From positions 1 to 64,000 of the forward strand of contig JAJTEK010000023.1 of the NCBI GenBank assembly GCA_021299695.1: a stretch of 64,000 nucleotides of DNA, read 5' to 3'. This DNA is from Pirellula sp. (GTDB taxonomy: Bacteria; Planctomycetota; Planctomycetia; Pirellulales; Pirellulaceae). A program made the translations under genes and the position numbers. The notes beneath the pieces are model-generated. The model ran no database searches. It was not told the DNA's origin and saw only the letters and a list, made by a program, of their open reading frames with translations. Of the stretch, positions 1 through 53,045 are shown piece after piece (within the stretch, counting starts at the first letter, position 1; every line of letters begins with the position of its first letter).

Positions 1-2816
1 CTCGCATCCCTATAGGTCTCGTACAACTGCTCGGCCAGGAGCGGTTCGCTCCCTTCGGCCTGTTCGACCGTATCCTTGATGCGATTCAATAAATCAAGGT
101 ACTGCTGTTTCTGTTCCTTCCAATCCTCGAGTTTTCTTTCTGGAACGTTTCCTTCTTGATTCAATTCCGCATCGCTGCGAAGCAATGACTCGCGCCTCGG
201 GCTGTTGGCCTCTGGCTGATCGGTTGTTGACTCACTGCGATCCGGCCCGTTCGTTTTGGATTCTGGATCCCTCGCAGGCAGATTCGCTTGTTCCCGCAGT
301 TGGCGTTCCAATTCGGATTGATTGTTTGCAACCTTCTGGGCTTGCTCGATCAACTGCTGGACATCCCTTTGAAGGGACTCGGAGCTTTGCCCTCGGAGTT
401 GCTCGCGTGTCTGCTCGACGGATTGCTCTGCGCGTGTTCCGGAGTTCAACGCTGCTGAGGGATTGGCCTCTTGCAATTGCCGCTCGGATTGCTGCATTTG
501 TTCGCGAGCGTTCTCGATCTCTCGTCGTGATTCTTCCATTGCATTTCTCGACTCAGGCTCGTTCATCCGTTCGAGTAATTCATCTGCATCCTGTACGAGT
601 TCCTGTTGATCTTCTCGCAATTGTTCTAGACGGTCTTGAAGCTCCTTCTTTTCCTGTTCGTCTTTGGCCGATTGCAGTGCTAGATCCAATTCACGAACTT
701 GCTCGTTGAGGTCCTCTTGCCGACGTGCCAACTCATCGAGGCGATTCATCACCTGGCGCATCTCTCGCTCAGAGTTTTCCTCTTCGGTCATGGGTTGCGA
801 TTCCTCCTCGTAGCGGCTCGGATCCTGTTCGAGTTGCAATTGCTGGATTTGCTCCTGTCGATTCCGCTCTGAGGCGGATTGAGACCTTTGGCTCGAGGAT
901 TGCTGCTGTTGACTTTGCGAGACTTCATGCTCGCGGGCTCGCAAGCGGAGTAGGCCTTCGTAAGCTCCTCGCATCTGCTTGATCGCCCCACGTAGAGCGA
1001 CAGATGGAGTATCCGACCCGGTTTGGTTCAATTCGGCGATCGCCTCGCGCATGCTCGATTGAACTTTGAGCAAATCCTGGGCTGCATTCGGCGCTTGCAA
1101 TTGCTCCTTGAGAGCCTCGGTTTGCTCGAGGGCTTGATTTTGTGATTCCAGAAGAATCGGCAGTTGTTCTTGGATGCTCTGGGAGGCATCCGGATTGGGT
1201 TTAGGGTTGGTTCGTAGTAAATTCCAGGTCGCCGAGAGGATTTTCTTTTGAAGCTCTGCCAATTCCTCGGCTTGTTGCGCCGATTCGGAGCCTTGCTGTT
1301 GTTGCTGCTCTTGACGTTGTTGGGTGGCCGAGGCGTCTGTTTCCCGGAAGATCTCCTCGAAGGGACGGACCTCTGCAAAGTACATCTCGCTTTCTATCCG
1401 CCTTGGTTGCCCATCGCGATCCAAGTCTTCGGTCCAGAAATGGTAGGTGACCAACTGATCTGCTTTGGCTTGGAGAGACTCAAGATCGATCAGATGCTGC
1501 AATTCAGTTTTTTTCTTCGGCGATTCACCAGGGGAGCTGAGCTCAATGTCCGACGGTTCGCTATCCCCGACCGAAACCCGGATTCCAGTTCGATGGATCC
1601 CGAAATCGTCCTGCACTCGGGCTCCGACGATCATTTCCTGGATTGCCGAGACGCGCTGATCGACCGCAGAAATCAGCTTGAGATCTGGCGCACGATTGGG
1701 AATGATTTTAACGACGAACTCCTCGGCGGTTTTCTCGGATCTCCCCTCGGAGTCGGTTAGTTTCAGCCGATAACGCATCGATTCTTTTGGCGCATTACGG
1801 ATCGTGAGCTCCATGGGGTTTTGCGGATTCTCTTCCAGAAGCGTGCTCTGTCCGTTTTCGTCGATCCACTCGGCCGAAATCACCGGCTTGTTGAGCTTAA
1901 GGCTCCATCGGATTTGCGCACCGTCGACGATCGAGACGCGACGAGTATTGGAGATCGTCTTGTCCTGCTGCTGCGCATAGGCCGGTGATTGGATCGAAGC
2001 ATCGCTTTGGAGTACTGCGGGATGCTCGAAGACTCCGACTTCAAATCGCTCGCTATTTTTGGAGTTGCTTTCGATTCGATAACGGAGTGGTTCTTTGATC
2101 TTTCGAATCGTCGCACTGGCGATCGGATCGCGTAAGCTTCGTTGCATACTGACGCTTTGAGATTCCCCGCTGGGGCTCTGGGCGATGAGCAGAAGATCAT
2201 CGGAAAAGTCGTCGGAAAAACGGACGCTGACGAGTAGATCAGAACCTTTTTCTATCTGAGTGTTTCCCGGTTCGACAATCCATTCGAACCCACGAATCTC
2301 TGAGGGAGCCGACAAATTTCGCAAGCTCGTAGTTTTCGTGTACAGCATCCAAGAAGTGGTGAGCGTCGCGCCGAGCAGCATCCATTGCAAGCTCCAAAGT
2401 GTCCCGAGTTTCCATTTAGGAACGACCGTTTCCCAGTGCTGCGATTGGGCGTGCACAATCGTCTCTTCGATCAATTTCGAACGAAGGAATTCCGATTCAT
2501 CGGGTTTGATCGGCTCGATCGCTGTCAGCAGTTTTTGGTCGATATCCGGAAACCGTCTTTCGATCCTTTGGGCCACCGAGTCAAGATTGCGGTATCCGAA
2601 GCGGGTCCAAAAAAAGAAAAGGGCATAGCCAGCGATCGCCGTAGCGACAAGAAGGCCCCACGAAAAAGATTCTGCGGTGGCATTGCCGGTCTGAGTCAGT
2701 CGGCCCAATAGCAACGCCAAGAAAACAACCCAATAGGCGATCAACAACCAAGCTAGCACCTGACTGCGGAATCTCTTGGCAATTTGTTCGAGTTTGTTTC
2801 GAATTTCTGAATGCAT
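1..2816 (-). CDS. DUF4175-type large membrane protein (3' end outside the window)
   Basis: The frame is open from an ATG at 2816 to the window edge, giving at least 938 residues. A GAGGAG ribosome site lies about 8 bases upstream, and the stop of the BatA/VWA gene is 10 bases away, so this is the last visible gene of the cluster. Two hydrophobic segments near residues 20-75 are followed by a beta-rich extracytoplasmic region (about 150-450). The rest is a very long Gln/Glu-rich coiled-coil region. This layout matches the DUF4175 proteins found next to MoxR/DUF58/VWA genes in planctomycetes. The molecular function is unknown; a membrane-anchored periplasmic scaffold is only an inference. Confidence 0.8.
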   Translation of the reverse strand, partial: MHSEIRNKLEQIAKRFRSQVLAWLLIAYWVVFLALLLGRLTQTGNATAESFSWGLLVATAIAGYALFFFWTRFGYRNLDSVAQRIERRFPDIDQKLLTAIEPIKPDESEFLRSKLIEETIVHAQSQHWETVVPKWKLGTLWSLQWMLLGATLTTSWMLYTKTTSLRNLSAPSEIRGFEWIVEPGNTQIEKGSDLLVSVRFSDDFSDDLLLIAQSPSGESQSVSMQRSLRDPIASATIRKIKEPLRYRIESNSKNSERFEVGVFEHPAVLQSDASIQSPAYAQQQDKTISNTRRVSIVDGAQIRWSLKLNKPVISAEWIDENGQSTLLEENPQNPMELTIRNAPKESMRYRLKLTDSEGRSEKTAEEFVVKIIPNRAPDLKLISAVDQRVSAIQEMIVGARVQDDFGIHRTGIRVSVGDSEPSDIELSSPGESPKKKTELQHLIDLESLQAKADQLVTYHFWTEDLDRDGQPRRIESEMYFAEVRPFEEIFRETDASATQQRQEQQQQQGSESAQQAEELAELQKKILSATWNLLRTNPKPNPDASQSIQEQLPILLESQNQALEQTEALKEQLQAPNAAQDLLKVQSSMREAIAELNQTGSDTPSVALRGAIKQMRGAYEGLLRLRAREHEVSQSQQQQSSSQRSQSASERNRQEQIQQLQLEQDPSRYEEESQPMTEEENSEREMRQVMNRLDELARRQEDLNEQVRELDLALQSAKDEQEKKELQDRLEQLREDQQELVQDADELLERMNEPESRNAMEESRREIENAREQMQQSERQLQEANPSAALNSGTRAEQSVEQTREQLRGQSSESLQRDVQQLIEQAQKVANNQSELERQLREQANLPARDPESKTNGPDRSESTTDQPEANSPRRESLLRSDAELNQEGNVPERKLEDWKEQKQQYLDLLNRIKDTVEQAEGSEPLLAEQLYETYRDA

Positions 2817-2826
2817 GATGAACTCC

Positions 2827-4995
2827 TCAGCCGCTTGTCGATGGTATGGTTCGGCTGCGCGACCCCAGCGCGGTTAGTACAGATTCGAATCCGGCGAATA
2901 ATAGAACAAACAACAACATCCACCACCAACCGCGTTGACTAGCTTCCAATTGCTCCGCCAAGGGATTGGCCCGAGAAGTCCGCTCCTGATCGATCTGCGC
3001 GATATTTCGTGTGTCGATTGGGATGCCGAAACGCGAGAACTCCTCAAGCTCGATCGGATCGGTGAGGCATTCGCTTCTAGGTAAGTTTACAGCGATTGCA
3101 TCGGTTGGTTCCTTGATGAGAACAGCGCTTTCGATCGGAGCGACGCTGGCCGTTTTCCGAGAAGCGTCGAGGCTGTAGATGCCTGGCGCATCGAAACGAT
3201 GATTGGTGGATTTCCATCCCTGCTGAATCAGAGAATTGGGAATGGCATCGCCGCAGTGGTAATCGTCTTGTTCTGGCCTTGGGCTTCCAAGTTCGAAGAG
3301 CGAATTGAGGATCGGAACGAACTTACTGGACAATGCCAACTGGCTCTCGATCGGCTGCCATCCGCTTGTGAGCAACGTGACCATCCCTTTGCCAATGGGC
3401 CGCTGCAACAACGCTGCTTGGCCATCATCGAACTTAGCGAGGACACGCCAAGACTCTGGATTGAGCCCCTGGATATTGCGGTGGTGCCAGAATCGAATTT
3501 TGGTGAAGTTGTTGTACTTGGGATCCGCAAAGGGTGAGAACACCGGATGGTTCATATCGATCTCTTGCAACAAATAGTATCGATTGGATTCGGCTTCAGA
3601 GATCGCTAGAGAATCCTCGTCAAACCAGCTCTTAAGTATCAATGCCGCGTCGGCAGGCTGCTGATCTGCCGTTGGCGGGTTTCGGGTTTCAAGGGGCCGA
3701 TCCAAGACCCACAGTACGTGGAGGCCTTGTTCGATCCATGGCTTGATGCGCTCGGCGCAAGGTAGACTCAAGTCGCTGGAAGCGACGACCCAACGGGGTG
3801 GGCTTTGGCCTTCCTCGAGGAGCAAATCGTTGGGGTCTTTCTGCTCCCATTGGACCTCAAGTTGTGGTTGTGAAACGGGAACCCTCGTGGCGAAGTACCA
3901 AAGAGAATCCTTCGATTCACGCATCCGAGAGTCGATGCAAAGGGCTCTTGCCAAGGACTTTTTACCTCGGTAGAGGTACTCTCGGTTGTCGAAGGGTTGC
4001 TCGTCGCCCTGTAGTTCCAGGACTAAAGGTACCGAAGGATCCAGCTCAAGCGGACGAGTCAACGAAATAATTTGCTGCTCTCCTGCCGGAACATACACCT
4101 CGGTTTTGGTTGAATCGAATGCGAGGCCATTGGAGTCGAGCCATTGCAATCGAAATCGATCGGTCGGTGCATCGATCGAATTGCGGACCGCAACCCGCAC
4201 GGTGTCTTCAGTGGAATCTCGATCGGCCTGATCGGCCTGATCGGCGTTGGACAAGATGGTCAGCGATGCGTTCCCGGGGGACTTGGGTTTGCAAACCAAT
4301 GGGATCACAGGGATATCCGATGGCCACTGGATCGATCCGAGACTTTCCAGCGAGTTTCCTCGTTGGAAATCCGATGCGATTGCGATCTGGGCAGAACGAA
4401 CCAATGGCCCTTGCTCGGTTTCTAGCGATTCCTCCTCAAGTAGCTCTAAAGCCTGGAGAAGCCCCTTTCCGATGTCCGATGCAAACCACGTTGGAGACAG
4501 TGCATCGAGTGCCTGAATCGCCAAGGTTTGGCTCTGGCCAGGAGCTTGTCGAGCTTGCTCAATAGAAACAATGGGTTCGAGCCGATCGGTCAGCAGATAG
4601 ACGGCCAAGGAGTCGGCTTGACCACTTTGGGAGAGGTACTCTTTGGATTTGGAGATCGCTTGTTCCCAAACACCTGGGCGTCTCATGCTTGCGCTCGCAT
4701 CGATCAGTAGAACTCGGTCTTTGCCTGGGTCGAGCGAAGCGGTTTGTTGAACCAAGTTCTTCAGATACGGTCTTGCAAAGGCGAAGGCTAGAGCCAGGAG
4801 TATGAGCGATCGCAAAAACAAGAGAAGCCAATGTTCGATTCGGCTTCGGCTCGTCAGACGTCGAGCCGAGGGTTCCAGGAAGAGGATCGAACTAAAATCG
4901 ATCACGTCCCTGGGGCGTTTTCTGACCAGGTGAGCAAGAATCGGAGCCAGCACAGCCAAGCCTGCGAGCAGATACAACGGAGTTAAAAAGCTCAT
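2827..4995 (-). CDS. BatA / von Willebrand factor A domain membrane protein
   Basis: This is a 722-residue protein. The N-terminus is a BatA (aerotolerance-regulator N-terminal) domain with two membrane helices (about residues 5-25 and 57-77) and the typical 'PRDVIDFSSILFLEPS' stretch. A VWA domain follows, with an intact MIDAS start DASAS near residue 100. A last membrane helix lies near residue 700, before a short basic tail. The start codon overlaps the stop of the DUF58 gene by four bases (ATGA), so the two are translationally coupled. Such proteins work with MoxR AAA+ ATPases in envelope or complex maturation; the target here is unknown. A short 9-base tandem repeat (4220-4244) encodes repeated Ala-Asp-Gln. 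Confidence 0.88.
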   Translation of the reverse strand: MSFLTPLYLLAGLAVLAPILAHLVRKRPRDVIDFSSILFLEPSARRLTSRSRIEHWLLLFLRSLILLALAFAFARPYLKNLVQQTASLDPGKDRVLLIDASASMRRPGVWEQAISKSKEYLSQSGQADSLAVYLLTDRLEPIVSIEQARQAPGQSQTLAIQALDALSPTWFASDIGKGLLQALELLEEESLETEQGPLVRSAQIAIASDFQRGNSLESLGSIQWPSDIPVIPLVCKPKSPGNASLTILSNADQADQADRDSTEDTVRVAVRNSIDAPTDRFRLQWLDSNGLAFDSTKTEVYVPAGEQQIISLTRPLELDPSVPLVLELQGDEQPFDNREYLYRGKKSLARALCIDSRMRESKDSLWYFATRVPVSQPQLEVQWEQKDPNDLLLEEGQSPPRWVVASSDLSLPCAERIKPWIEQGLHVLWVLDRPLETRNPPTADQQPADAALILKSWFDEDSLAISEAESNRYYLLQEIDMNHPVFSPFADPKYNNFTKIRFWHHRNIQGLNPESWRVLAKFDDGQAALLQRPIGKGMVTLLTSGWQPIESQLALSSKFVPILNSLFELGSPRPEQDDYHCGDAIPNSLIQQGWKSTNHRFDAPGIYSLDASRKTASVAPIESAVLIKEPTDAIAVNLPRSECLTDPIELEEFSRFGIPIDTRNIAQIDQERTSRANPLAEQLEASQRGWWWMLLFVLLFAGFESVLTALGSRSRTIPSTSG

Positions 4996-5921
4996 AGAGA
5001 TCCGACAGCCTCTCGCATCGAAAGGAAGTTGCTCAGAACCAGTTCCATGGGGTCGGTCGTTTGGAAATCGACACAGGGAATCCCAAGGGGTGTGAGGATG
5101 TCGGACAATTCTGAGCGGTGTTTTTGGAAGTTTCGTTGGTAACTATCCGCCACTTCCACTGGATCGACAAAACGTTCTTCTCCGGATTCAACATCGCGTA
5201 CCAAAACGGGTTTCTCGTGATGAAACCTCAATTCCATGGGATCCAAAACCCGCAGCAAGACCACTTCGTGCCGCCGAGCCCGCAGGAATGCCAAAGGAGC
5301 TTTTAACGCATCAGGCCAAACCATCAGGTCCGATACGATGACAATGAGGCTTCGATGCTGCACCAACTGGGCGATCTGTTCGAGGGGTGCGATCAAATCC
5401 GTGGCTTGGCCGGCACAAGGTTTCGAGAGCATCGAAAGGATGCGTTGAAATTGGCCCGTCCGGAATCTCGCCGTAAGCCAATCAGTAACACGTTGATCAA
5501 AAGTAACAGCGCCGACAGCATCGCGTTGCCGAAGCAGAAAAAGTCCTAGCGTAGCGATCAGCGTACGAGCGTATTCGTACTTGGTGTAATCGATCGAACC
5601 GTACTGCATCGACTTGCTCTGATCGATCACCAGATAGCATCGACGATTTGTTTCATCCTCAAAGCGTTTCTGGTAGTATCGATCGGAACGAGCATAGAGT
5701 TTCCAATCGATCGTTTTTGGATCATCGCCGAGCGAATAAGGTCGGTACTCGCTGAATTCGACCGAAAAACCGTGCTTGGGACTCCGGTGCAAACCGGTCT
5801 GGAATCCGTCGACAACCTTTTGGGCTCGCCACTGCAAATTGCGAACTGCCATGAGCGTCTTTAAATCAATCCACGCGGATGCTTGGTTCGTTTGCGAATC
5901 GGTTCTGTTTTCCAGTGCCAA
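4992..5921 (-). CDS. DUF58 domain protein
   Basis: This 309-residue protein has the DUF58 hallmark: 'SEYRPYSLGDDPKTIDW' near residues 58-74, then 'KRFEDETNRRCYLVIDQSKSM', a VWA-like core with a DxSxS-type site. It lacks N-terminal membrane helices, unlike the second DUF58 protein in this window, so it is probably cytoplasmic or peripheral. The start is a TTG at 5921, chosen because AGGGG lies about 9 bases upstream and no ATG precedes the conserved region. It begins 12 bases after the MoxR stop. DUF58 proteins are the usual partners of MoxR ATPases. Confidence 0.9.
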   Translation of the reverse strand: MALENRTDSQTNQASAWIDLKTLMAVRNLQWRAQKVVDGFQTGLHRSPKHGFSVEFSEYRPYSLGDDPKTIDWKLYARSDRYYQKRFEDETNRRCYLVIDQSKSMQYGSIDYTKYEYARTLIATLGLFLLRQRDAVGAVTFDQRVTDWLTARFRTGQFQRILSMLSKPCAGQATDLIAPLEQIAQLVQHRSLIVIVSDLMVWPDALKAPLAFLRARRHEVVLLRVLDPMELRFHHEKPVLVRDVESGEERFVDPVEVADSYQRNFQKHRSELSDILTPLGIPCVDFQTTDPMELVLSNFLSMREAVGSL

Positions 5922-5933
5922 TGGATTTAACCC

Positions 5934-6980
5934 CTAAGACTCGCAAGGAATTTCGTTGAGCAGTTTTTCAATGGCGTCCTCGACGGTCATTCCCTGTGCC
6001 TCAGCTTTGTAAGACAACAGCAAGCGATGCCGAAGAACAGGGGGGGCCAAGCTGCGGATGTCCTCAAATCTCCCATGGGTTTTGCCATGGAGAATTGCTC
6101 GTGCTTTGGCTCCCAAAACCAACATTTGTGCAGCCCGAAGACCCGCTCCCCAGGTAATGGAGTCGTTGACCCACTGCGGGGTGTTCGGCTGGTTTGGTCT
6201 TGTGGCAGACACGAGCCGCACGGCATAACGAGCAACGTCCTGCGCAACTGGAACCTTCCGCACCAAGGCTTGGAATTGCAAGATATCCATGGCGTCAAAG
6301 AGCGCTTCGATCGGTTCGGCCGTCCGACTCGTCGTGTCGAGTACAACCTTTAACTCGTCTTCAAAAGGGAGATAATCGATCAGCACATTGAACATGAATC
6401 GATCGAGCTGTGCCTCTGGGAGCGGATAAGTCCCTTCCATTTCGATCGGGTTTTGAGTCGCTAGAACGAAAAAAGGTTTGGGCAAGCCGTATCTCTTTCC
6501 AGCCGCCGTCACCTGGTGCTCTTGCATGGCTTCGAGCAATGCCGACTGGGTTTTGGGGGGCGTGCGATTGATTTCGTCGGCGAGGATTACGTTGGCAAAG
6601 ACTGGCCCAGGGACAAATCGTAGCTCACGGTGCCCTTGATTGTCCGTGAGAATTTCTGTGCCGGTGATGTCTGCGGGCATCAGATCCGGAGTGAATTGGA
6701 CTCGGCTAAAGTCCAAGTGGAATGCTTGAGCTACGCTGCGCACAAGTAGGGTTTTAGCAAGCCCTGGAGCGCCGGTGATCAAGCAATGTGTTCCGGAAAA
6801 CAGACAGATCAAGAGTTGCTCGATGACCTCCTTTTGACCGACGATGGTTTTCTCAAGCTCCCGCTCGAGCAGGACGCGCCCTTTCTGGATCTGGTCGAAC
6901 AACGCAGCATCCGATGATCCGCTAGGGGATTCGTTTGCCGACTCTTCGTTCGATCCATCACCCCTCGATGCAGTATTCAA
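5934..6980 (-). CDS. MoxR-family AAA+ ATPase
   Basis: This is a 348-residue protein. The MoxR AAA_3 core carries a variant Walker A, GAPGLAKT, near residue 75. It also has the family segments 'FVPGPVFANVILADEINRTPPKTQSALLEAMQE' and 'FVLATQNPIEMEGTYPLPEAQLDRF' (Walker B and sensor 1), and a C-terminal AAA lid. The first 25 residues are Ser/Glu-rich and probably disordered. The start is TTG with GAGG just upstream. MoxR proteins act as chaperone-like ATPases on VWA partners; the DUF58 and BatA/VWA genes directly downstream are the obvious clients. Confidence 0.93.
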   Translation of the reverse strand: MNTASRGDGSNEESANESPSGSSDAALFDQIQKGRVLLERELEKTIVGQKEVIEQLLICLFSGTHCLITGAPGLAKTLLVRSVAQAFHLDFSRVQFTPDLMPADITGTEILTDNQGHRELRFVPGPVFANVILADEINRTPPKTQSALLEAMQEHQVTAAGKRYGLPKPFFVLATQNPIEMEGTYPLPEAQLDRFMFNVLIDYLPFEDELKVVLDTTSRTAEPIEALFDAMDILQFQALVRKVPVAQDVARYAVRLVSATRPNQPNTPQWVNDSITWGAGLRAAQMLVLGAKARAILHGKTHGRFEDIRSLAPPVLRHRLLLSYKAEAQGMTVEDAIEKLLNEIPCES

Positions 6981-6995
6981 CGCAACCTCACTCTT

Positions 6996-7835
6996 TCAAT
7001 GCGTCATCGCATAAGTAACAATATTGATGCCCATAGGATAAGCCTTCTTCACAGAAAACTCCTCGAAATACCAGGGATCCTCCCCTTCACGTTCCCAACC
7101 ATCCCCGAGATCCGTGTTGTGGCAGATAAAGACCATGATCCTGCCTTGATCGTCGAAGATCGCTTGGTAATGTGGGATGCTCGTGTCGGATCCATCACGC
7201 GGCTCCCAGATCACTCCACTTTGTCTGCCATTCCAAGCCGAATGGATCGACGGTAGCTGTGGTTTTTCCTTCAAATCGTAGACGCAGTGGAAAATCTCAT
7301 GCTCCAGCGGGACTTCTTGTGGTTCTCTGTTGGGAAACACCCGTTTGAGCTCTCGGTAGAAATTTTCGTACTCCTTGTCGCCCCAAAAATCATCGACCAT
7401 CAAAAATCCACCGTTATCGAGGTACTTGCGCAACGCCGATACCTCCGGCTCATGAAACCTCAAATCCCCCGGTTCGATGATGTAGATGAAGGGATATTCG
7501 AAAAGCTTCGGATCGCTCAATTCCAAAACAATCGGCTCTGGATTCACCTTGAGGGTCGTCAACTGCTGAAGCCTCAAACTGAAATTCAACTCGCTATCTC
7601 GAAAGTCCGTCGCCCACCCCCCTCCACGGCGATAGCCCGCCGAATCGTACTTGATCCTCACGAAGGTAAACGAGTCCTTGACGAACTTGCGGTCGAGTTC
7701 CCAACTCTCTACACCACCGCGTCCGGCCGATTGCCAATCGCGCCGAAATCGCCCGCGGGGAGGCTGGGCTAAAACCAATACGGTCGAAGCAAGCAGGACC
7801 GAGCTTGCGAGGATAAGCTTCCAATTCGTTTTCAT
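6996..7835 (-). CDS. DUF4159 domain secreted protein
   Basis: From the ATG at 7835 the protein has 279 residues and begins with a clear signal peptide (MKTNWK, a hydrophobic core, then VLAQ|PP). A longer reading from an ATG at 7901 would place 22 extra residues before it, so I prefer the internal start. The body is a DUF4159 domain with 'ATDFRDSELNFSLRLQQLT', 'EPGDLRFHEPEVSALRKYLDNGGFLMVDDFWGD' and 'HNTDLGDGWERE'. DUF4159 often occurs fused or next to BatA/DUF58 modules and resembles a GATase-1-like fold. It is the first gene of the minus-strand cluster and ends 15 bases before the MoxR gene. Confidence 0.85.
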   Translation of the reverse strand: MKTNWKLILASSVLLASTVLVLAQPPRGRFRRDWQSAGRGGVESWELDRKFVKDSFTFVRIKYDSAGYRRGGGWATDFRDSELNFSLRLQQLTTLKVNPEPIVLELSDPKLFEYPFIYIIEPGDLRFHEPEVSALRKYLDNGGFLMVDDFWGDKEYENFYRELKRVFPNREPQEVPLEHEIFHCVYDLKEKPQLPSIHSAWNGRQSGVIWEPRDGSDTSIPHYQAIFDDQGRIMVFICHNTDLGDGWEREGEDPWYFEEFSVKKAYPMGINIVTYAMTH

Positions 7836-8120
7836 CGGCACCAAGATGCTTGCTCCCTCATGCTTGCCTAATTCGGTTGCCTGGCGGTCTGCGATCTGCA
7901 TGACGGGGCGATTACCCCTTCAGTTGCATCCGTCGATTGCACCCAACGTAGTGAATTTTCCGGGTTGCTGGGCGCTATCGCAAGCAAAATTCTAGGTTCG
8001 GATCCTAGAATGCCGAGTTAAATACGGACCGAAGTGGTGCACGAGCTCCACAAATCAGTCATACTACTGGAAACCGGCTCGTTCGGTCGGTCGCACCCCT
8101 CTCTCATTCGAACCGTTGCA

Positions 8121-11105
8121 ATGCGTTTTTGTTTCGATCGATTGTTCCGCTTTTTATTCCTTTACCCCACGAATGCCTCGCTAACGAACGCGATGTTTTG
8201 GTGCGCGTTGCTCCTTGCACTCTTCGGTGCGTACGATGCGACTTGCGCACAGGATAGTCCGAAGGCCATCGATGAGTTTTTCGAAAAACAAGTTCGACCT
8301 CTTCTGATCTCAAAGTGTTACGAATGCCATTCGCAGACGACCGAGCAAAACGGTGGGCTGTCTATGGATTCTCTCGAAGGGATGCTCCAGGGGGGCGATT
8401 CCGGTCCGGCTCTGGTTGTCGAATCGCCCGAGAAGAGCCTGATCCTTCGCGCGATCCGATACCGCGATCCGAAACTGCTGATGCCGCCTGAGAACCGCAT
8501 GTCGGCTTCCGAGGTTCGAATCCTTGAGGACTGGATCGCCTTGGGAGCAAAGGTATCCGTCGATTTCCAAAAAAGACCTGAGGGTACACCGCAGGACGGC
8601 AAACCCGGAGCGCTTGCTACCCAACACTCGGCGCTTGGGGTCGAACAAGCTCGAGAGCATTGGGCTTATCGACCACTGGTACGATCCGAAATTCCGGCCA
8701 ACGGGCAATCGAATCCCATCGATGCGTTTCTAGCAAGGGGGAGCGAATCTCTTCAAGTCGAACCGAGTCGGCTCGTCGATGAGCGAACTTGGATTCGCCG
8801 CCTAGCGATCGATCTGCACGGAATGAATCCGAGCTACGAGTCGATCGAATCGGCGTTGGAGTTGTTTCGAACCACCGATGACTCGCAGTGGGATTCGATC
8901 CGATCGCGTGTGGTCGACCAGTACCTGGCCTCTGCTCGCTACGGGGAACGCTTCGCTCGTCATTGGATGGACGTGGTTCGCTATGCCGAGTCGTTGACAT
9001 TGCGCGGATTTGTATTCCCTGATGTTTGGCGATATCGGAATTATCTCATCGAAGCTTACAACCAGGACCGCCCATTTGACGGGGTGATCGCCGAGCAAAT
9101 TGCAGGGGATCTGATGAATCGTCAAAGCTCTCAGGGTAGGTCGATCGAAGAACTCCAGAGGCGGCTCGTTGCGACCACCTTCTGGGCCATCGGCGATCAC
9201 AACTACGAGGAACAAGACAAAAAGCAACTCGAAATGGATGCTGTCGATGAGCAAATCGAAGTCTTCGGAAGAACTTTCCTAGCGCAGACGCTAGGCTGTG
9301 CGCGCTGCCACGATCACAAATTCGATCCTATACCGACGGCCGATTACTATGCCTTAGCCGGAATTCTAAAATCCTCGGTCTCGATGGATCACGAAAATGT
9401 TTCAAAATGGATCCGTCAACCGTTGCCCATGAGCGACCAAGAGCAGCAGAAATTTGACCAGTTGGCAAAAAGGCTCCAGGAGGTCAAGAAAGAGCTCAGT
9501 CTGCTCAAGGATCGAAAAAAACAAGGCAACCAGAGCGCAACGGTCGTAAACTCCAAAGAAGTCTCCGGCGTCGTCGTCGACGATCGACAGGCCAAGAAGA
9601 TCGGTTCCTGGAAGGAATCCAACTCGGTCAAGGTGTACATCGACGAGGGTTACCTGCACGACGAGAATAAAGACCGCGGTAGCAAAAGCGTCACCTTCGA
9701 CCCCGGTTCGCTGGCCTCGGGTCTCTATACCGTTCGCATGTCCTATGCGCATGGAGAAAATCGAAGTTCCAAGACACAGGTCCGCGTCTTTAATGCCGAT
9801 GGGGAAACACTCGTGGTGGTCAACCAAAAAACACCACCGGCCGAAGACGGCTTGTGGTTCAACCTAGGGAAATACCGTTTCGAAAAAGACGGAGCAGCCT
9901 TTGTGATCATCAGCAACGAACAGGCCGATGGCCATGTCATCGCCGACTCGGTTCAGTTTATGCCCGAGTTGGAAGATTCTTCCACGAAGGAACCGCGGGC
10001 CGAGTCGAAGTCCTCGGCCAAAAATGTCGACGAGCAACACGAGTCGATGATCAAGCAGATCGCCCACCTTGAGAAACTCCAAACGGAAATCCAGAAGGAA
10101 TTGGACCTGCGCCCGATGGCACAAACCCTCAGGCCTGCCGATTCCCCCTCGGATATCCCCATCCATGTGCGAGGCTCGGTCCATCGCCTGGGGCCTGTCG
10201 TCGAGCGAGGTTTTCTCTCGTGCATCAATTCCCATGAGCCTGAATTGAATCGTCGAATCCGGGTCCAAGCCACCGACAATGGCCGATTGGAGCTCGCCCA
10301 ATGGACGATCGCTCCGGAAAATCCATTGACGGCCCGAGTCTATGTCAACCGGATTTGGTACCACATGATGGGCCGGGGGATCGTTCCGACCGTGGACAAC
10401 TTTGGTACGACCGGTTCGCCCCCCTCGGATCCGCAACTCTTGGACTGGCTCGCTTCGGAATTCATCGCTCAGGATTGGTCGACCAAATGGCTAGTAAAGA
10501 CGATCGCTACCTCGAAGGCCTACCGACGAAGCATTGCGGCTAGTCCCGATTCGCTCGAAAAGGACCCTGAGAATCACTTATTTGCCAGGGGACTCCTGAG
10601 GCGATTGGATAGTGAGTCGCTTCGGGATTCCATGCTCCAAGCCAGTGGGGAGTTGCAGATCGGGGGTTCGGTGGGCTCGACCATTCGCCCAGGAACCAAA
10701 GAGGATTATCGCTACGAGCATCAGGCCGACTTGCGTTCGGTCTATTTACCTTGGTTTCGAAATGCCCTCCCACCCTTGATTCGCGAATTCGATGGAGCCA
10801 ATCCGAGTTTCTCGATCTCCGAGCGAAATCGCAGCACGGTGGCCACCCAAGCCCTGGCGATGATGAATCATCCATGGGTTCGCCATCGCGCCTCGGCGCT
10901 GGTCGCCTCGCTAAATCTACCTCCGAGCGACCCCCGAGATCCCGCTCAACTCGATGAGGCCATCGAATCGATCTTCATAAAAACGCTCGGGCGGAATCCC
11001 GAGGCGACCGAGCAGCCCTGGGCTCGCTCGGTTGTCGAGAACGGTGGACTTGAGGAACTCTCGCATCAATTGCTCGCTTCGATCGACTTTCGTTACGCTC
11101 CATGA
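8121..11105 (+). CDS. PSCyt1/DUF1549/DUF1553 planctomycete protein with golvesin-like insert
   Basis: This is a large secreted protein of 994 residues from the ATG at 8121; earlier (8034) and later (8193) starts are possible. A hydrophobic signal segment ends in 'DATCAQ'. The PSCyt1 cytochrome-like domain holds a CxxCH haem motif (CYECH, about residue 66). DUF1549 follows, with 'RYGERFARHWMDVVRYAES' and a second Cys motif in 'CARCHDHKFDPIP'. Near residues 480-615 sits a golvesin/Xly-type beta domain ('YIDEGYLHDENKDRGSKSVTF'). DUF1553 forms the C-terminal third ('NPLTARVYVNRIWYHMMGRGIV'). The DUF1501 gene starts 18 bases downstream, the usual partner. Function is undetermined; a role in surface polysaccharide breakdown is a common guess. 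Confidence 0.92.
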   Translation: MRFCFDRLFRFLFLYPTNASLTNAMFWCALLLALFGAYDATCAQDSPKAIDEFFEKQVRPLLISKCYECHSQTTEQNGGLSMDSLEGMLQGGDSGPALVVESPEKSLILRAIRYRDPKLLMPPENRMSASEVRILEDWIALGAKVSVDFQKRPEGTPQDGKPGALATQHSALGVEQAREHWAYRPLVRSEIPANGQSNPIDAFLARGSESLQVEPSRLVDERTWIRRLAIDLHGMNPSYESIESALELFRTTDDSQWDSIRSRVVDQYLASARYGERFARHWMDVVRYAESLTLRGFVFPDVWRYRNYLIEAYNQDRPFDGVIAEQIAGDLMNRQSSQGRSIEELQRRLVATTFWAIGDHNYEEQDKKQLEMDAVDEQIEVFGRTFLAQTLGCARCHDHKFDPIPTADYYALAGILKSSVSMDHENVSKWIRQPLPMSDQEQQKFDQLAKRLQEVKKELSLLKDRKKQGNQSATVVNSKEVSGVVVDDRQAKKIGSWKESNSVKVYIDEGYLHDENKDRGSKSVTFDPGSLASGLYTVRMSYAHGENRSSKTQVRVFNADGETLVVVNQKTPPAEDGLWFNLGKYRFEKDGAAFVIISNEQADGHVIADSVQFMPELEDSSTKEPRAESKSSAKNVDEQHESMIKQIAHLEKLQTEIQKELDLRPMAQTLRPADSPSDIPIHVRGSVHRLGPVVERGFLSCINSHEPELNRRIRVQATDNGRLELAQWTIAPENPLTARVYVNRIWYHMMGRGIVPTVDNFGTTGSPPSDPQLLDWLASEFIAQDWSTKWLVKTIATSKAYRRSIAASPDSLEKDPENHLFARGLLRRLDSESLRDSMLQASGELQIGGSVGSTIRPGTKEDYRYEHQADLRSVYLPWFRNALPPLIREFDGANPSFSISERNRSTVATQALAMMNHPWVRHRASALVASLNLPPSDPRDPAQLDEAIESIFIKTLGRNPEATEQPWARSVVENGGLEELSHQLLASIDFRYAP

Positions 11106-49832: not shown

Positions 49833-51119
49833 ATGTCGTCAGGTAAGGATGTGATGGCCAGCAGGAAATCTACTGGCAACGGCAACACAAAGAAGAACTG
49901 TTCTTTTTGTCGCAAGAGTTATCGGGATGTCGGTCCATTGGTCGAGGGGCCCGGAGAAGTCTATATCTGCGGCGAGTGCATCGAGCTATGCTCTTCGATG
50001 CTCGAACAAGAGCAGCGTCGGCATGGGCCAACGAAAAAACTCTTTGGGGATATCCCAACCCCACGCTCGATCGTCGAACACCTCGATCAGTACGTCATCG
50101 GCCAACTGCAGACCAAACGAGCCCTAGCCGTGGCCGTCCACAACCACTACAAGCGTTTGAGCGCCGGATGGGACGACGCGAACATCGAGATCGAAAAATC
50201 CAACATCTTGCTCGTTGGGCCCACCGGTTGCGGCAAAACCCTCATCGCCAGAACGTTGGCCAAAATGCTCAACGTTCCGTTTGCCATCGGCGACGCGACC
50301 ACACTGACCGAAGCCGGCTACGTCGGCGAGGATGTCGAAAACCTCCTCTTGAAACTCCTCCATGCAGCCGACTTCGATATCGAAGCGGCTCAGCGAGGGA
50401 TCCTTTATATCGACGAGATCGACAAGATCGGCAAAACCAGCCAAAACGTATCGATCACCCGCGATGTCTCCGGAGAAGGTGTCCAACAAGCACTCCTGAA
50501 GATGCTCGAAGGGACCGTCGCGAACGTGCCCCCCCAAGGTGGACGCAAGCACCCCGAGCAGCAGTATATCCAGATGGATACGACCAATATTCTCTTTATC
50601 TGCGGGGGGACATTTGTAGGTATCGATGAAATCATTTCGAAACGGCTAGGAAAGAAATCCCTCGGCTTCGGACCAGGAACCACCATCAAAGAAGAAAAAG
50701 ATGTTGCCACACTGTTGGGTCAAGTCCACTCGGACGATATCCTCGAATTCGGCATGATCCCCGAACTCATCGGCCGCTTGCCCGTCGTTACGGCTTTGGC
50801 TCCTTTGGACGTCTCCGGACTGGTCAAGGTCCTGACCGAACCGAAAAACGCTTTGATCAAACAATACCAAGCGTTATTCGGGATGGAAAACTGCCAGCTT
50901 CAGTTCACCGAAAACGCTCTGTCTGCGATCGCCAAAAAAGCCCATACCAAGAGTGTCGGCGCCCGTGGACTCCGCAGCATCGTCGAGGAGATCATGATGG
51001 ATGTCATGTTCGATCTTCCTGAACAAGAAGAAGGAACCGTTTATACCATCGATCTGGATGAACAATCCGGAAAGGTCACTCCTGTCAAATCGATCCCGCA
51101 ACGCAAAGAAAGCGCTTGA
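49833..51119 (+). CDS. clpX: ATP-dependent Clp protease ATP-binding subunit ClpX
   Basis: The ATG at 49833 has GGAG about 8 bases upstream and gives 428 residues, the usual ClpX length. The N-terminal zinc-binding domain has C23-x2-C26 and C46-x2-C49. The AAA+ part has Walker A 'GPTGCGKT', '[15 protein letters not shown]' (pore loop), Walker B '[10 protein letters not shown]' and '[26 protein letters not shown]'. ClpX unfolds tagged proteins and feeds them to ClpP. No clpP lies here; instead a Pup-like and a PafA/Dop-like gene follow 17 bases downstream, an unusual arrangement suggesting tag-directed delivery to ClpX. Confidence 0.97.
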
Positions 51120-51136
51120 AAGCTACGCAACCTTTG

Positions 51137-51367
51137 ATGGAAAGCCAACGAATCGATATCCTAAAGAGTGCATCGTCGCCCAACGATGCAACGTCGCAAC
51201 CGGGAGCTTCGCCCGAGAAGTCGCCATCGAGCACTCCTGAGCCGGCTCCTACCGTAACCTCGATCGAAGATAGGCTCCAAGCTTGGGTTAAATCCGTTGA
51301 AAAAGATACTCAGACGCAGGTCCAAAACTATCTGGAGCAGATCGACGCGGGACAAAACGGCGAGTAG
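51137..51367 (+). CDS. Pup-like small tagging protein (candidate)
   Basis: From the ATG at 51137 (a TTG at 51116, overlapping the clpX stop, is an alternative) the product has 76 residues. Residues 10-40 are Ser/Pro-rich and look disordered. Residues 42-70 are predicted helical ('SIEDRLQAWVKSVEKDTQTQ', then 'VQNYLEQIDAG'). The last residues are GQNGE. Actinobacterial Pup is about 64 residues, disordered, with a C-terminal helix and a GGQ or GGE end, so the size, order and terminal Gly-Glu fit. It sits between clpX (17 bases) and a PafA/Dop homologue (7 bases). Similarity is weak, so the function is an inference from context plus C-terminus. Confidence 0.68.
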   Translation: MESQRIDILKSASSPNDATSQPGASPEKSPSSTPEPAPTVTSIEDRLQAWVKSVEKDTQTQVQNYLEQIDAGQNGE

Positions 51368-51374
51368 ATCGCGG

Positions 51375-53045
51375 TTGCTCCATCGGTATATCGGACTCGA
51401 ATCGGAAATGTTTTGGAGGCATCCTAAAGATGCCCAAAAAGATTCGCTCAAAGAGTTCTCCGGGATTCTCAAATCGATCCGAGAACGACTGCCGCTTGCA
51501 CCAAGCCATCATGCCCTTCGTTGGTTCCTTGCCAATGGATCGAGTCTTTCTCTCGAAATGGGTGGCTCAGCAGATTTATCTTCCGCGCTGATCGAAATCG
51601 CAACACCCGAAACACGCAGTCCCCGTCAGGTCGTTTGCTACCTGTTGGCCAACGAACAAATCCTCCAAGACGCCCTCGAGGCCCACCGACGGTCACAAGA
51701 CTGGTCGCTCATCAAATCCAATAGCGATGCCTATGGACATACCCTCGGCCAGCACGAGTCGTACGACATGCGCATCGCACAAGGACCATGGCTGATCGCT
51801 TGGTGGATCGGTCTGGCATTACTCCTCTTACCATTGCTTCTCTACCGATGTCTTGCAGCCCTTTGGCTCGGCAGCATGCTGTTGATCTCGCTGGGCCATC
51901 GTGGGCTCGGCATGGCCGGTTGGGGCAACGACAAAACACCGGCTTCCAAGCTCGATTCATTGCAAAGCCACAATTGCCTCTTAGGCTTTCCGATGGCCCC
52001 CTGGCAATGGGTCCTGGGTGCATGGGGACTACGCCAGCTCCATGCGCCCATCGTTTGGCTATTCGGACTTCTGCTCTACACCGTGGCCCTGCGGCCCCAT
52101 CGGCGAAACGCGTCTGCTTTCTTGGCCTCTCGATGCCTCTTGGATGGAGCCGGATACCTCGATCCGGAATCCAAGTTCTGGATCAGTTCCCGCGCCGCGA
52201 TGGTCGACCGACAGATTGGGTTTGGGAGTTACAACGCCCATCGCCCGATGTTCCGCTGCGATCCATTGCTGCGCAAGCTTCTCTCGGGGCCCTATTGGAG
52301 CCTGAAGAATTTCTTCGAATTGCTCCGTCCGATCCAAAGAATAGAGATCGCGATCGGCGATTCGGGAATGTGTCAGCAATCGCAGTGGCTCAGGCTCGGC
52401 TCGACGGCGCTGGTCCTCGACTGGGTCGAGCAGAATCCTACCGTCGAGGCAGTTCATTTGCGTTCGGCCACCACCGCAATTCGCGAGTATGCCCGAGACT
52501 GGATGCTGGTCCGATCGATGCCGGACCGAAAGGGCCTCGAATACAAGTCACGCGATCTGTCCCGAATCTACTTGAGGACTCTCAAAAGTTGGCTCGAGAA
52601 GAAGTCCGAGGTTCCCCGAGAAGCTTGGGAGATCATCGAACTCTGGCAGATGACCCTCAATCAGATCGACGCGATGCCTAAGAACCAAAACCAGCCGCCG
52701 ATGCTGCTCGTCGGCCGAATCGACTGGATAAGCAAGCTCTGGCTCCTGCAGCAACTGGGCAAAGAGACCGATTGGACCGTCAAGAAAAAGATCGATATCC
52801 GCTACCACGAACTGACCTCCGAAGGTTACTTTCGGCAGCTCCTCGAAAATTTGCAATTGTCCCCTTTGGTCTCCGATCAAGAAATCCAGCTTGCCATGCG
52901 AATGCCCCCGGCCGAATCGCCCGCTTGGCAACGCGGCACTTGGATCCGTGAATTCGCCGACTCGGATTCCAAGATCGCCGTCAGTTGGGAGAAAGCAAGC
53001 TACGAATTGGATGGTGAAAACTACAGTGTCCTCTTCCGCCGCTGA
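51375..53045 (+). CDS. PafA/Dop-family Pup ligase or depupylase with hydrophobic insert
   Basis: I place the start at a TTG (51375), giving 556 residues (MLHRYIGLESE...). An earlier TTG at 51297 would overlap the Pup-like gene by 71 bases. Motifs match carboxylate-amine-ligase pupylation enzymes. 'RYIGLESE' (5-11) equals PafA 'RIMGIETE', 'IKSNSDAYGHTLGQHESYDM' (113-132) equals 'FKNNTDSAGNSYGCHENYL', and 'IAIGDSGMCQQSQWLRLGSTALVLDWVE' is near 325-352. 'GRIDWISKLWLL', 'IDIRYHEL' and 'VSDQEIQLAMRMPPAESPAWQRG' follow. The Asp of 'LYLDVG' is Glu61 here ('LSLEMG'). Residues 137-240 form a mostly hydrophobic insert with several potential membrane helices. It ligates or removes a Pup-like tag; the direction is unknown. 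Confidence 0.85.
   Translation: MLHRYIGLESEMFWRHPKDAQKDSLKEFSGILKSIRERLPLAPSHHALRWFLANGSSLSLEMGGSADLSSALIEIATPETRSPRQVVCYLLANEQILQDALEAHRRSQDWSLIKSNSDAYGHTLGQHESYDMRIAQGPWLIAWWIGLALLLLPLLLYRCLAALWLGSMLLISLGHRGLGMAGWGNDKTPASKLDSLQSHNCLLGFPMAPWQWVLGAWGLRQLHAPIVWLFGLLLYTVALRPHRRNASAFLASRCLLDGAGYLDPESKFWISSRAAMVDRQIGFGSYNAHRPMFRCDPLLRKLLSGPYWSLKNFFELLRPIQRIEIAIGDSGMCQQSQWLRLGSTALVLDWVEQNPTVEAVHLRSATTAIREYARDWMLVRSMPDRKGLEYKSRDLSRIYLRTLKSWLEKKSEVPREAWEIIELWQMTLNQIDAMPKNQNQPPMLLVGRIDWISKLWLLQQLGKETDWTVKKKIDIRYHELTSEGYFRQLLENLQLSPLVSDQEIQLAMRMPPAESPAWQRGTWIREFADSDSKIAVSWEKASYELDGENYSVLFRR

Follow-up and report, generated by a model that had tools for sequence, protein, structure and literature searches.

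A candidate membrane-bound pupylation pair in Pirellula: a Pup-like tag encoded with a C-terminal glutamate beside a single ligase of the PafA/Dop family

The window analysed here is a 64,000-nucleotide stretch of a contig of Pirellula sp. (Planctomycetota, Pirellulaceae), from a genome that is 95% complete in 229 contigs. On its forward strand, at 51,137–51,367, lies a small ORF, here called pupE, that encodes a Pup-like tag of 76 amino acids (ATG at 51,137, TAG stop at 51,365–51,367) with a genome-encoded C-terminal Gly-Glu; the 76 codons counted from this ATG end in ...NYLEQIDAGQNGE. The ORF list opens the frame at TTG 51,116 (83 aa) instead, and the ATG start (MESQRI...) is kept in the three nearest relatives, L123–L125. 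A second frame follows on the same strand at 51,297–53,045 and matches the Pup_ligase family (PF03136) with an E-value of 1.3e-64 and a score of 219.3 bits, against a curated cut-off of 25. The true start of this ligase gene is uncertain, being either TTG 51,375, just past the pupE stop, or TTG 51,297, overlapping pupE. Directly upstream of pupE, across a gap of 17 nt (51,119–51,137), lies clpX. An earlier note, made from the letters alone, had described a small ORF ending in AGQNGE upstream of a PafA-like gene, and both genes are found as described.

The product of the downstream frame is a Pup-ligase-family enzyme that carries a hydrophobic insertion. Its AlphaFold2 model, built from 51 sequences (mean pLDDT 90.5, pTM 0.91), has the GS fold, and its best match in the PDB is Dop (4b0r; Z 40.5, 2.6 Å over 412 residues), with PafA (4bjr; Z 35.9, 3.1 Å over 415 residues) further off and YbdK-type ligases ranking after both at Z of about 20. 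The sequence is also closer to Dop (E 4.9e-23) than to PafA (E 1.5e-11), and it falls below the equivalog cut-offs of both, with 124 bits against 551 for PafA (TIGR03686) and 122 against 492 for Dop (TIGR03688). We conclude that the ligase is a distinct branch, neither PafA nor Dop proper, because its active-site residues differ from those of both. The GhExE motif (GLESE, model residues 8–12; 51,393–51,407, forward strand), which serves in Mg/ATP binding in this superfamily (PMC2588565), is present, with G8, E10 and E12 in 51/51 ligases, and further acidic residues are, like its glutamates, invariant across the 51. The catalytic Asp (PafA Asp64, Dop Asp94) is replaced by Glu in the window's ligase (Glu62 of the model; 51,555–51,557, forward strand), and the alignment has Glu at this position in 50 of 51 members and Asp in one; the equivalence to Asp64 refers to the PafA chain of 4b0t with numbering counted from the alignment, the residue being Asn in the 4bjr sequence. 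A catalytic role of D94 in Dop has been described (PMC8599861). The strand-4 [HQ]x[NH] and strand-6 [QH]x4D motifs of the superfamily (Iyer et al. 2008, PMC2588565) are kept by most of the ligases, and the window has H-x-S and E-x4-D; Ser stands for the strand-4 Asn in 4/51 (the window's ligase, its genus mates L032 and L033, and one more) and Glu for the strand-6 Gln in 3/51 (the window's ligase and the same two genus mates). The Thr-Thr and Arg of the alpha-loop, reported to be important for PafA activity (PMC7947786), have no conserved counterpart in the ligase alignment, in which the loop is variable and aligns poorly.

Several of these observations count against a pupylation ligase: the scores fall short of both equivalog cut-offs, Dop, which is a hydrolase, is closer than PafA, the catalytic Asp has become Glu, the alpha-loop residues lack a conserved counterpart, and the strand-4 and strand-6 positions are altered in the window's genus. 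That the tag has no match to the Pup profile counts against the pupylation reading too. The greater proximity to Dop, in sequence as in structure, together with the Glu in place of Asp and the two altered positions, would suit an enzyme that hydrolyses in the manner of Dop, or a pseudo-ligase that senses Pup. We regard this as unlikely, however, as one PF03136 gene, the one after pupE, was found in the window's genome and no second, which leaves nothing known to make the conjugates that a hydrolase would act on. A tag that already ends in Glu has no need of deamidation, and the GhExE glutamates are invariant. The gene content thus agrees with the suggestion of the earlier note that a single ligase would suffice, and we continue to treat the enzyme as a ligase.

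The other parts of a proteasomal pathway were sought in the same genome. PF00227, the family of proteasome subunits, has no match in it, nor in two genomes of the window's genus, G010 and G074. Among 26 ligase-bearing genomes that were checked, 15 have a match and 11, the window's among them, have none, a count to be read with the fact that PF00227 is not specific for the 20S proteasome and also matches in E. coli and B. subtilis; these matches we take to be HslV-type. A search for ARC in the window's genome returned five AAA matches, none of them over the curated cut-off. Given a completeness of 95%, the absence of these other parts is likely, if unproven, and with the assembly split into 229 contigs a gene that seems to be missing may fall between two of them.

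The hydrophobic insertion of the ligase (51,786–52,085, forward strand) comprises two long hydrophobic helices, at model residues 139–180 and 210–238, joined in the AlphaFold2 model by a low-confidence loop, and on the evidence of model, hydrophobicity and alignment it is the presumed membrane anchor. It follows the strand-4 motif, which reads QENY in most ligases and HESY in the window, and precedes the next conserved block; its length, taken from Tyr131 to position 244 in 51 members, ranges from 95 to 173 residues with a median of 116. A hydrophobic 19-residue peak lies within this region in 52/52 ligases. The insertion probably spans the membrane, and the model would allow either two long or four short transmembrane segments. 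The tip loop carries a negative net charge on average and the return flank a positive one, which fits a cytoplasmic catalytic domain. In other planctomycete families the frames of the membrane-type ligases are mostly 586–755 aa, and the profile match stops near position 470 of 573; two of these frames (L222 and L226) continue to the C-terminal part past the end of the match, which suggests a further insertion. An enzyme that appears to be inserted in the membrane might be thought to attach PupE to an amine of the membrane itself, for example phosphatidylethanolamine or a different amino-lipid, and so tether the tag much as lipidation tethers Atg8. The residues that differ in the loop bearing on ligase versus hydrolase activity in PafA and Dop, and a genome in which no proteasome subunit was detected, would be compatible with this. 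The characterised PafA enzymes act on protein lysines, however (PMC3511204), and a lipid acceptor seems to us quite improbable; a protein acceptor is preferred in what follows.

A conserved third gene was looked for around the ligase. In 36 wider neighbourhoods, compared with genes under 80 aa left out and with the ligase itself recovered in 33, no family other than the ligase was common to more than seven. The clpX gene found upstream of pupE in the window also precedes it in L123–L129, at a larger gap of about 130 to 500 nt. Among 80 named and 51 family loci, searched in flanks of about 1.5 to 3 kb or less, it was found at the window's own locus (L001) and at L123–L129 only, all of the window's group, and we therefore rejected clpX as a general partner. 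That the tag delivers proteins to ClpXP, as this upstream position might suggest, is accordingly very doubtful, since within the short flanks searched the association is restricted to one group, and in the 36 wider neighbourhoods no family but the ligase is common to more than seven.

The terminus of the tag is constant. The earlier note had named variable C-termini and broken frames among relatives as what would tell against its proposal; GE is the terminus in 74/74 distinct tags drawn from the family, unlinked and named sets. As the first tag seeds had been picked for a GE ending, a model from which the three C-terminal columns had been removed served as a control, and it detected an adjoining tag in 57 of 80 named loci, ending in GE in 57/57, a result to be read with the facts that this model was built from the GE-picked tags minus three columns and that many of the 80 loci are contigs of the family set. 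Of the 23 named loci without an adjoining tag in this search, 14 are named Rhodopirellula, Rubripirellula or Stieleria; for one (L182, R. europaea 6C) an adjoining GE tag was found on a later search, in agreement with the description by Iyer et al. (2008, PMC2588565), two (L159, L174) begin at contig ends, and for the other 20 no tag was found in the flank. Tags of other planctomycete families end in Glu in 15/15 of those read (13 GE and 2 AE), a set in which L224 (E 0.51) and L243 (E 4.7) are weak matches accepted by position, and L224 came first from a list prefiltered for E or Q. A different ending is seen in soluble clusters with two PafA/Dop homologues, which occur in some of the same genomes: in four of them (G009, G024, G042, G099) the tag of the cluster ends in SGQ (4/4), and in a fifth (G041) the cluster is cut at a contig edge. 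The ending of the tag thus follows the enzymes beside it, with Glu where the membrane-type ligase stands alone and Gln where there are two enzymes. The constancy of GE bears out the view in the earlier note of a Glu-ended Pup-like candidate, the ligation of which we infer.

Tag and ligase also occur together. Among 100 genomes of the same family, PF03136 was found in 51 and the tag (at E 0.05) in 51, an identical set when the two lists were matched by eye. One of these, G089, has a ligase fragment only and a doubtful tag match, and setting it aside leaves 50 sound genomes with both and 49 with neither. The 50 sound genomes hold 52 membrane-type ligases, and the tag adjoins the ligase at 44 of these loci (43, plus one split across two contig ends). 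The remaining eight ligases, each in its own genome, are accompanied by a GE-ending tag elsewhere in the genome (E 4.8e-10 to 0.022); these eight tags stood outside the search model, and seven ligase-free genomes searched alongside gave no match below E 0.2. The unlinked tags (L095, L097–L103) form a sub-branch in which all end in DGE and several in SNTG(H/Y)DGE, and no neighbour in their regions is common to more than 3/8. Two genomes, G006 (L022/L057) and G072 (L025/L051), have two membrane-type ligases each, and each ligase has its own, different adjoining tag, the ends being ...VPDGGE and ...TQQQGE; these genomes may possibly hold two parallel tag-ligase systems.

Beyond the family, the ligase profile matches 33 of 392 genomes of the phylum, the window's included, although in some the match is confined to the region that soluble PafA/Dop have in common with it. 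The pair is adjacent in other planctomycete families and also in one Myxococcota and one Deltaproteobacteria MAG (L199, L201). In a check of 23 genomes of the phylum, a tag match adjoins the ligase in 14 (the tag of one, G174, was not read). No adjoining tag was seen in 5 of the 19 that have a membrane-type ligase-like match (G218, G359, G100, G115, G208), a point against the pupylation reading, nor in the four whose match is limited to the region common to soluble PafA/Dop (G111, G113, G146, G147), and most of the other tag matches in this check are probably due to chance.

The tag sequence itself has no credible profile match. Neither Pfam nor NCBIfam has a family for the ORF, no credible Pup or UBact match was obtained among the tags, and the Pup profile PF05639 matched 0/43 tag sequences and nothing in the window's genome; canonical Pup or UBact membership by profile was rejected accordingly. 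A tag profile run against PDB sequences did not recover Pup, and the best of its six matches (7xkx, E 8.6e-4) was judged to be chance. At 76 aa, PupE falls within the range of about 50–90 aa that is typical of Pup. An AlphaFold2 model of its last 60 residues has a single helix at 27–56 and a low-confidence N-terminal half. A disordered N-terminus and a C-terminal helix, the shape that the earlier note had attributed to Pup and to this ORF alike, thus receive mild support only, because the confidence of the model is low (mean pLDDT 73, pTM 0.37) and the test a weak one. In L123, L124 and L125, Pirellula or Planctomycetota MAGs whose ligases are 96%, 96% and 85% identical to that of the window, the frame and the final GE are kept, and dN/dS (NG86) for the whole ORF is 0.24, 0.12 and 0.23, respectively, falling to 0.10, 0.08 and 0.11 when the last 40 codons are taken by themselves. 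For the farther L126 and L127, for which synonymous sites are near saturation, the values are 0.25 and 0.22 for the whole ORF and 0.14 and 0.30 for the last 40 codons. By these ratios pupE is under purifying selection, and this, with the conserved terminus and the retention of the tag even when unlinked from the ligase, led us to reject the reading of pupE as a spurious ORF or as one that merely encodes a leader peptide for the ligase. Its shortness and lack of a Pfam or NCBIfam family would speak for such a reading, to which we give next to no credence.

We consider it probable, then, that PupE and a single ligase make up a minimal pupylation system of two genes, bound to the membrane. PupE would be made with its C-terminal Glu already present and, ending in Glu as encoded, would need no deamidase. 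The GS-fold ligase of the PafA/Dop family, presumably anchored on the cytoplasmic side of the membrane through its helical insertion, would use ATP to phosphorylate the side-chain carboxylate of this Glu, and the activated residue (a gamma-glutamyl phosphate) would then be joined to a lysine on a protein in the membrane or close to it. The tag is probably non-proteasomal in effect, because no proteasome subunit or second PafA/Dop was detected in the window's genome, and it would probably alter the localisation or activity of its target, or else be read by another protease. The same ligase may also remove the tag. A more specific picture, in which one enzyme with Glu in place of Asp, and with neither deamidase nor proteasome, carries out non-degradative, ubiquitin-like signalling at the membrane in Planctomycetota and some Myxococcota, we put forward tentatively, inclining somewhat to doubt.

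Experimental knowledge of pupylation comes mainly from Actinobacteria, where it targets proteins to the proteasome. The window pair resembles the canonical set of Pup, PafA, Dop, Mpa (ARC) and 20S proteasome in its small, disordered tag, the C-terminal Glu and the GS-fold ligase. It differs in that no second PafA/Dop and no ARC-type ATPase over cut-off were found, in the hydrophobic insertion, in the replacement of the catalytic Asp by Glu, and in a tag without a PF05639 match. A Glu-ending Pup alone has a precedent in C. glutamicum, which nevertheless keeps Dop; corynebacteria lack the proteasome genes and have pup immediately ahead of pafA (PMC3511204). Nor is the window pair new in kind, because Iyer, Burroughs and Aravind (2008, PMC2588565) predicted a Pup and a Pup ligase with inserted transmembrane segments in Rhodopirellula and Plesiocystis, proposing that the arrangement, which has no proteasome linkage, regulates membrane-associated proteins. 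Their system, like ours, has a Pup ending in G[EQ] beside a PafA homologue in which core strand 4 is followed by a hydrophobic insertion, and the window pair is a member of the kind they predicted; the earlier note was essentially right, though it had picked up neither the insertion nor the Glu in place of the catalytic Asp. They describe four transmembrane segments and a linked membrane-protein gene, whereas here we see two long helices and no third family common to more than seven of 36 neighbourhoods, and they place Pup beside PafA in all lineages, whereas here the tag lies elsewhere in eight genomes. Hecht et al. (2020, PMC7947786) used a PafA/Dop homologue that some Planctomycetes have in single copy, with 29–31% identity to both, as an outgroup, and this is probably of the same enzyme family as the window's ligase; the portions of their article dealing with it describe a partial alignment with the Dop-loop and do not discuss a tag or a membrane insertion. 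Among the open-licence literature matches listed, no experimental test of the membrane Pup-ligase arrangement was found. What is added here is the Glu-only rule with its Gln contrast, the co-occurrence, the unlinked tags, the Asp-to-Glu replacement and the lack of a conserved third gene in 36 neighbourhoods, part of which may already appear in the 2008 supplement.

If the interpretation is correct, this stripped, membrane-fixed two-gene version would reveal what role the tag has without a proteasome and Dop, and it would offer researchers a minimal ligase, which could also serve in proximity labelling at membranes. The occurrence of Glu with the solitary ligase and of Gln in the two-enzyme clusters makes the proposal that no deamidation is needed directly testable.

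UBact is the Pup-like tag of Gram-negative bacteria and is, like PupE, a Pup-like tag outside Actinobacteria. Five genomes of the same family (L052–L056) also hold a soluble Pup-like cluster, complete or partial, with PafA/Dop homologues, and those at L052–L055 we take to be of the UBact kind, although no NCBIfam model named their members. These clusters are unlike the window pair in having two PafA/Dop homologues and Gln-ending tags and, in L055, an ATPase. The example at L055 (positions 1,789–9,072) includes this ARC-like ATPase and two enzymes, one with its higher score against Dop and the other with its higher score against PafA. It also encodes a protein of 377 aa that matches Prok-JAB weakly (E 7.8e-5, 23 bits against a cut-off of 25); it would be unusual for a JAB-type protease to neighbour a Pup-like tag.
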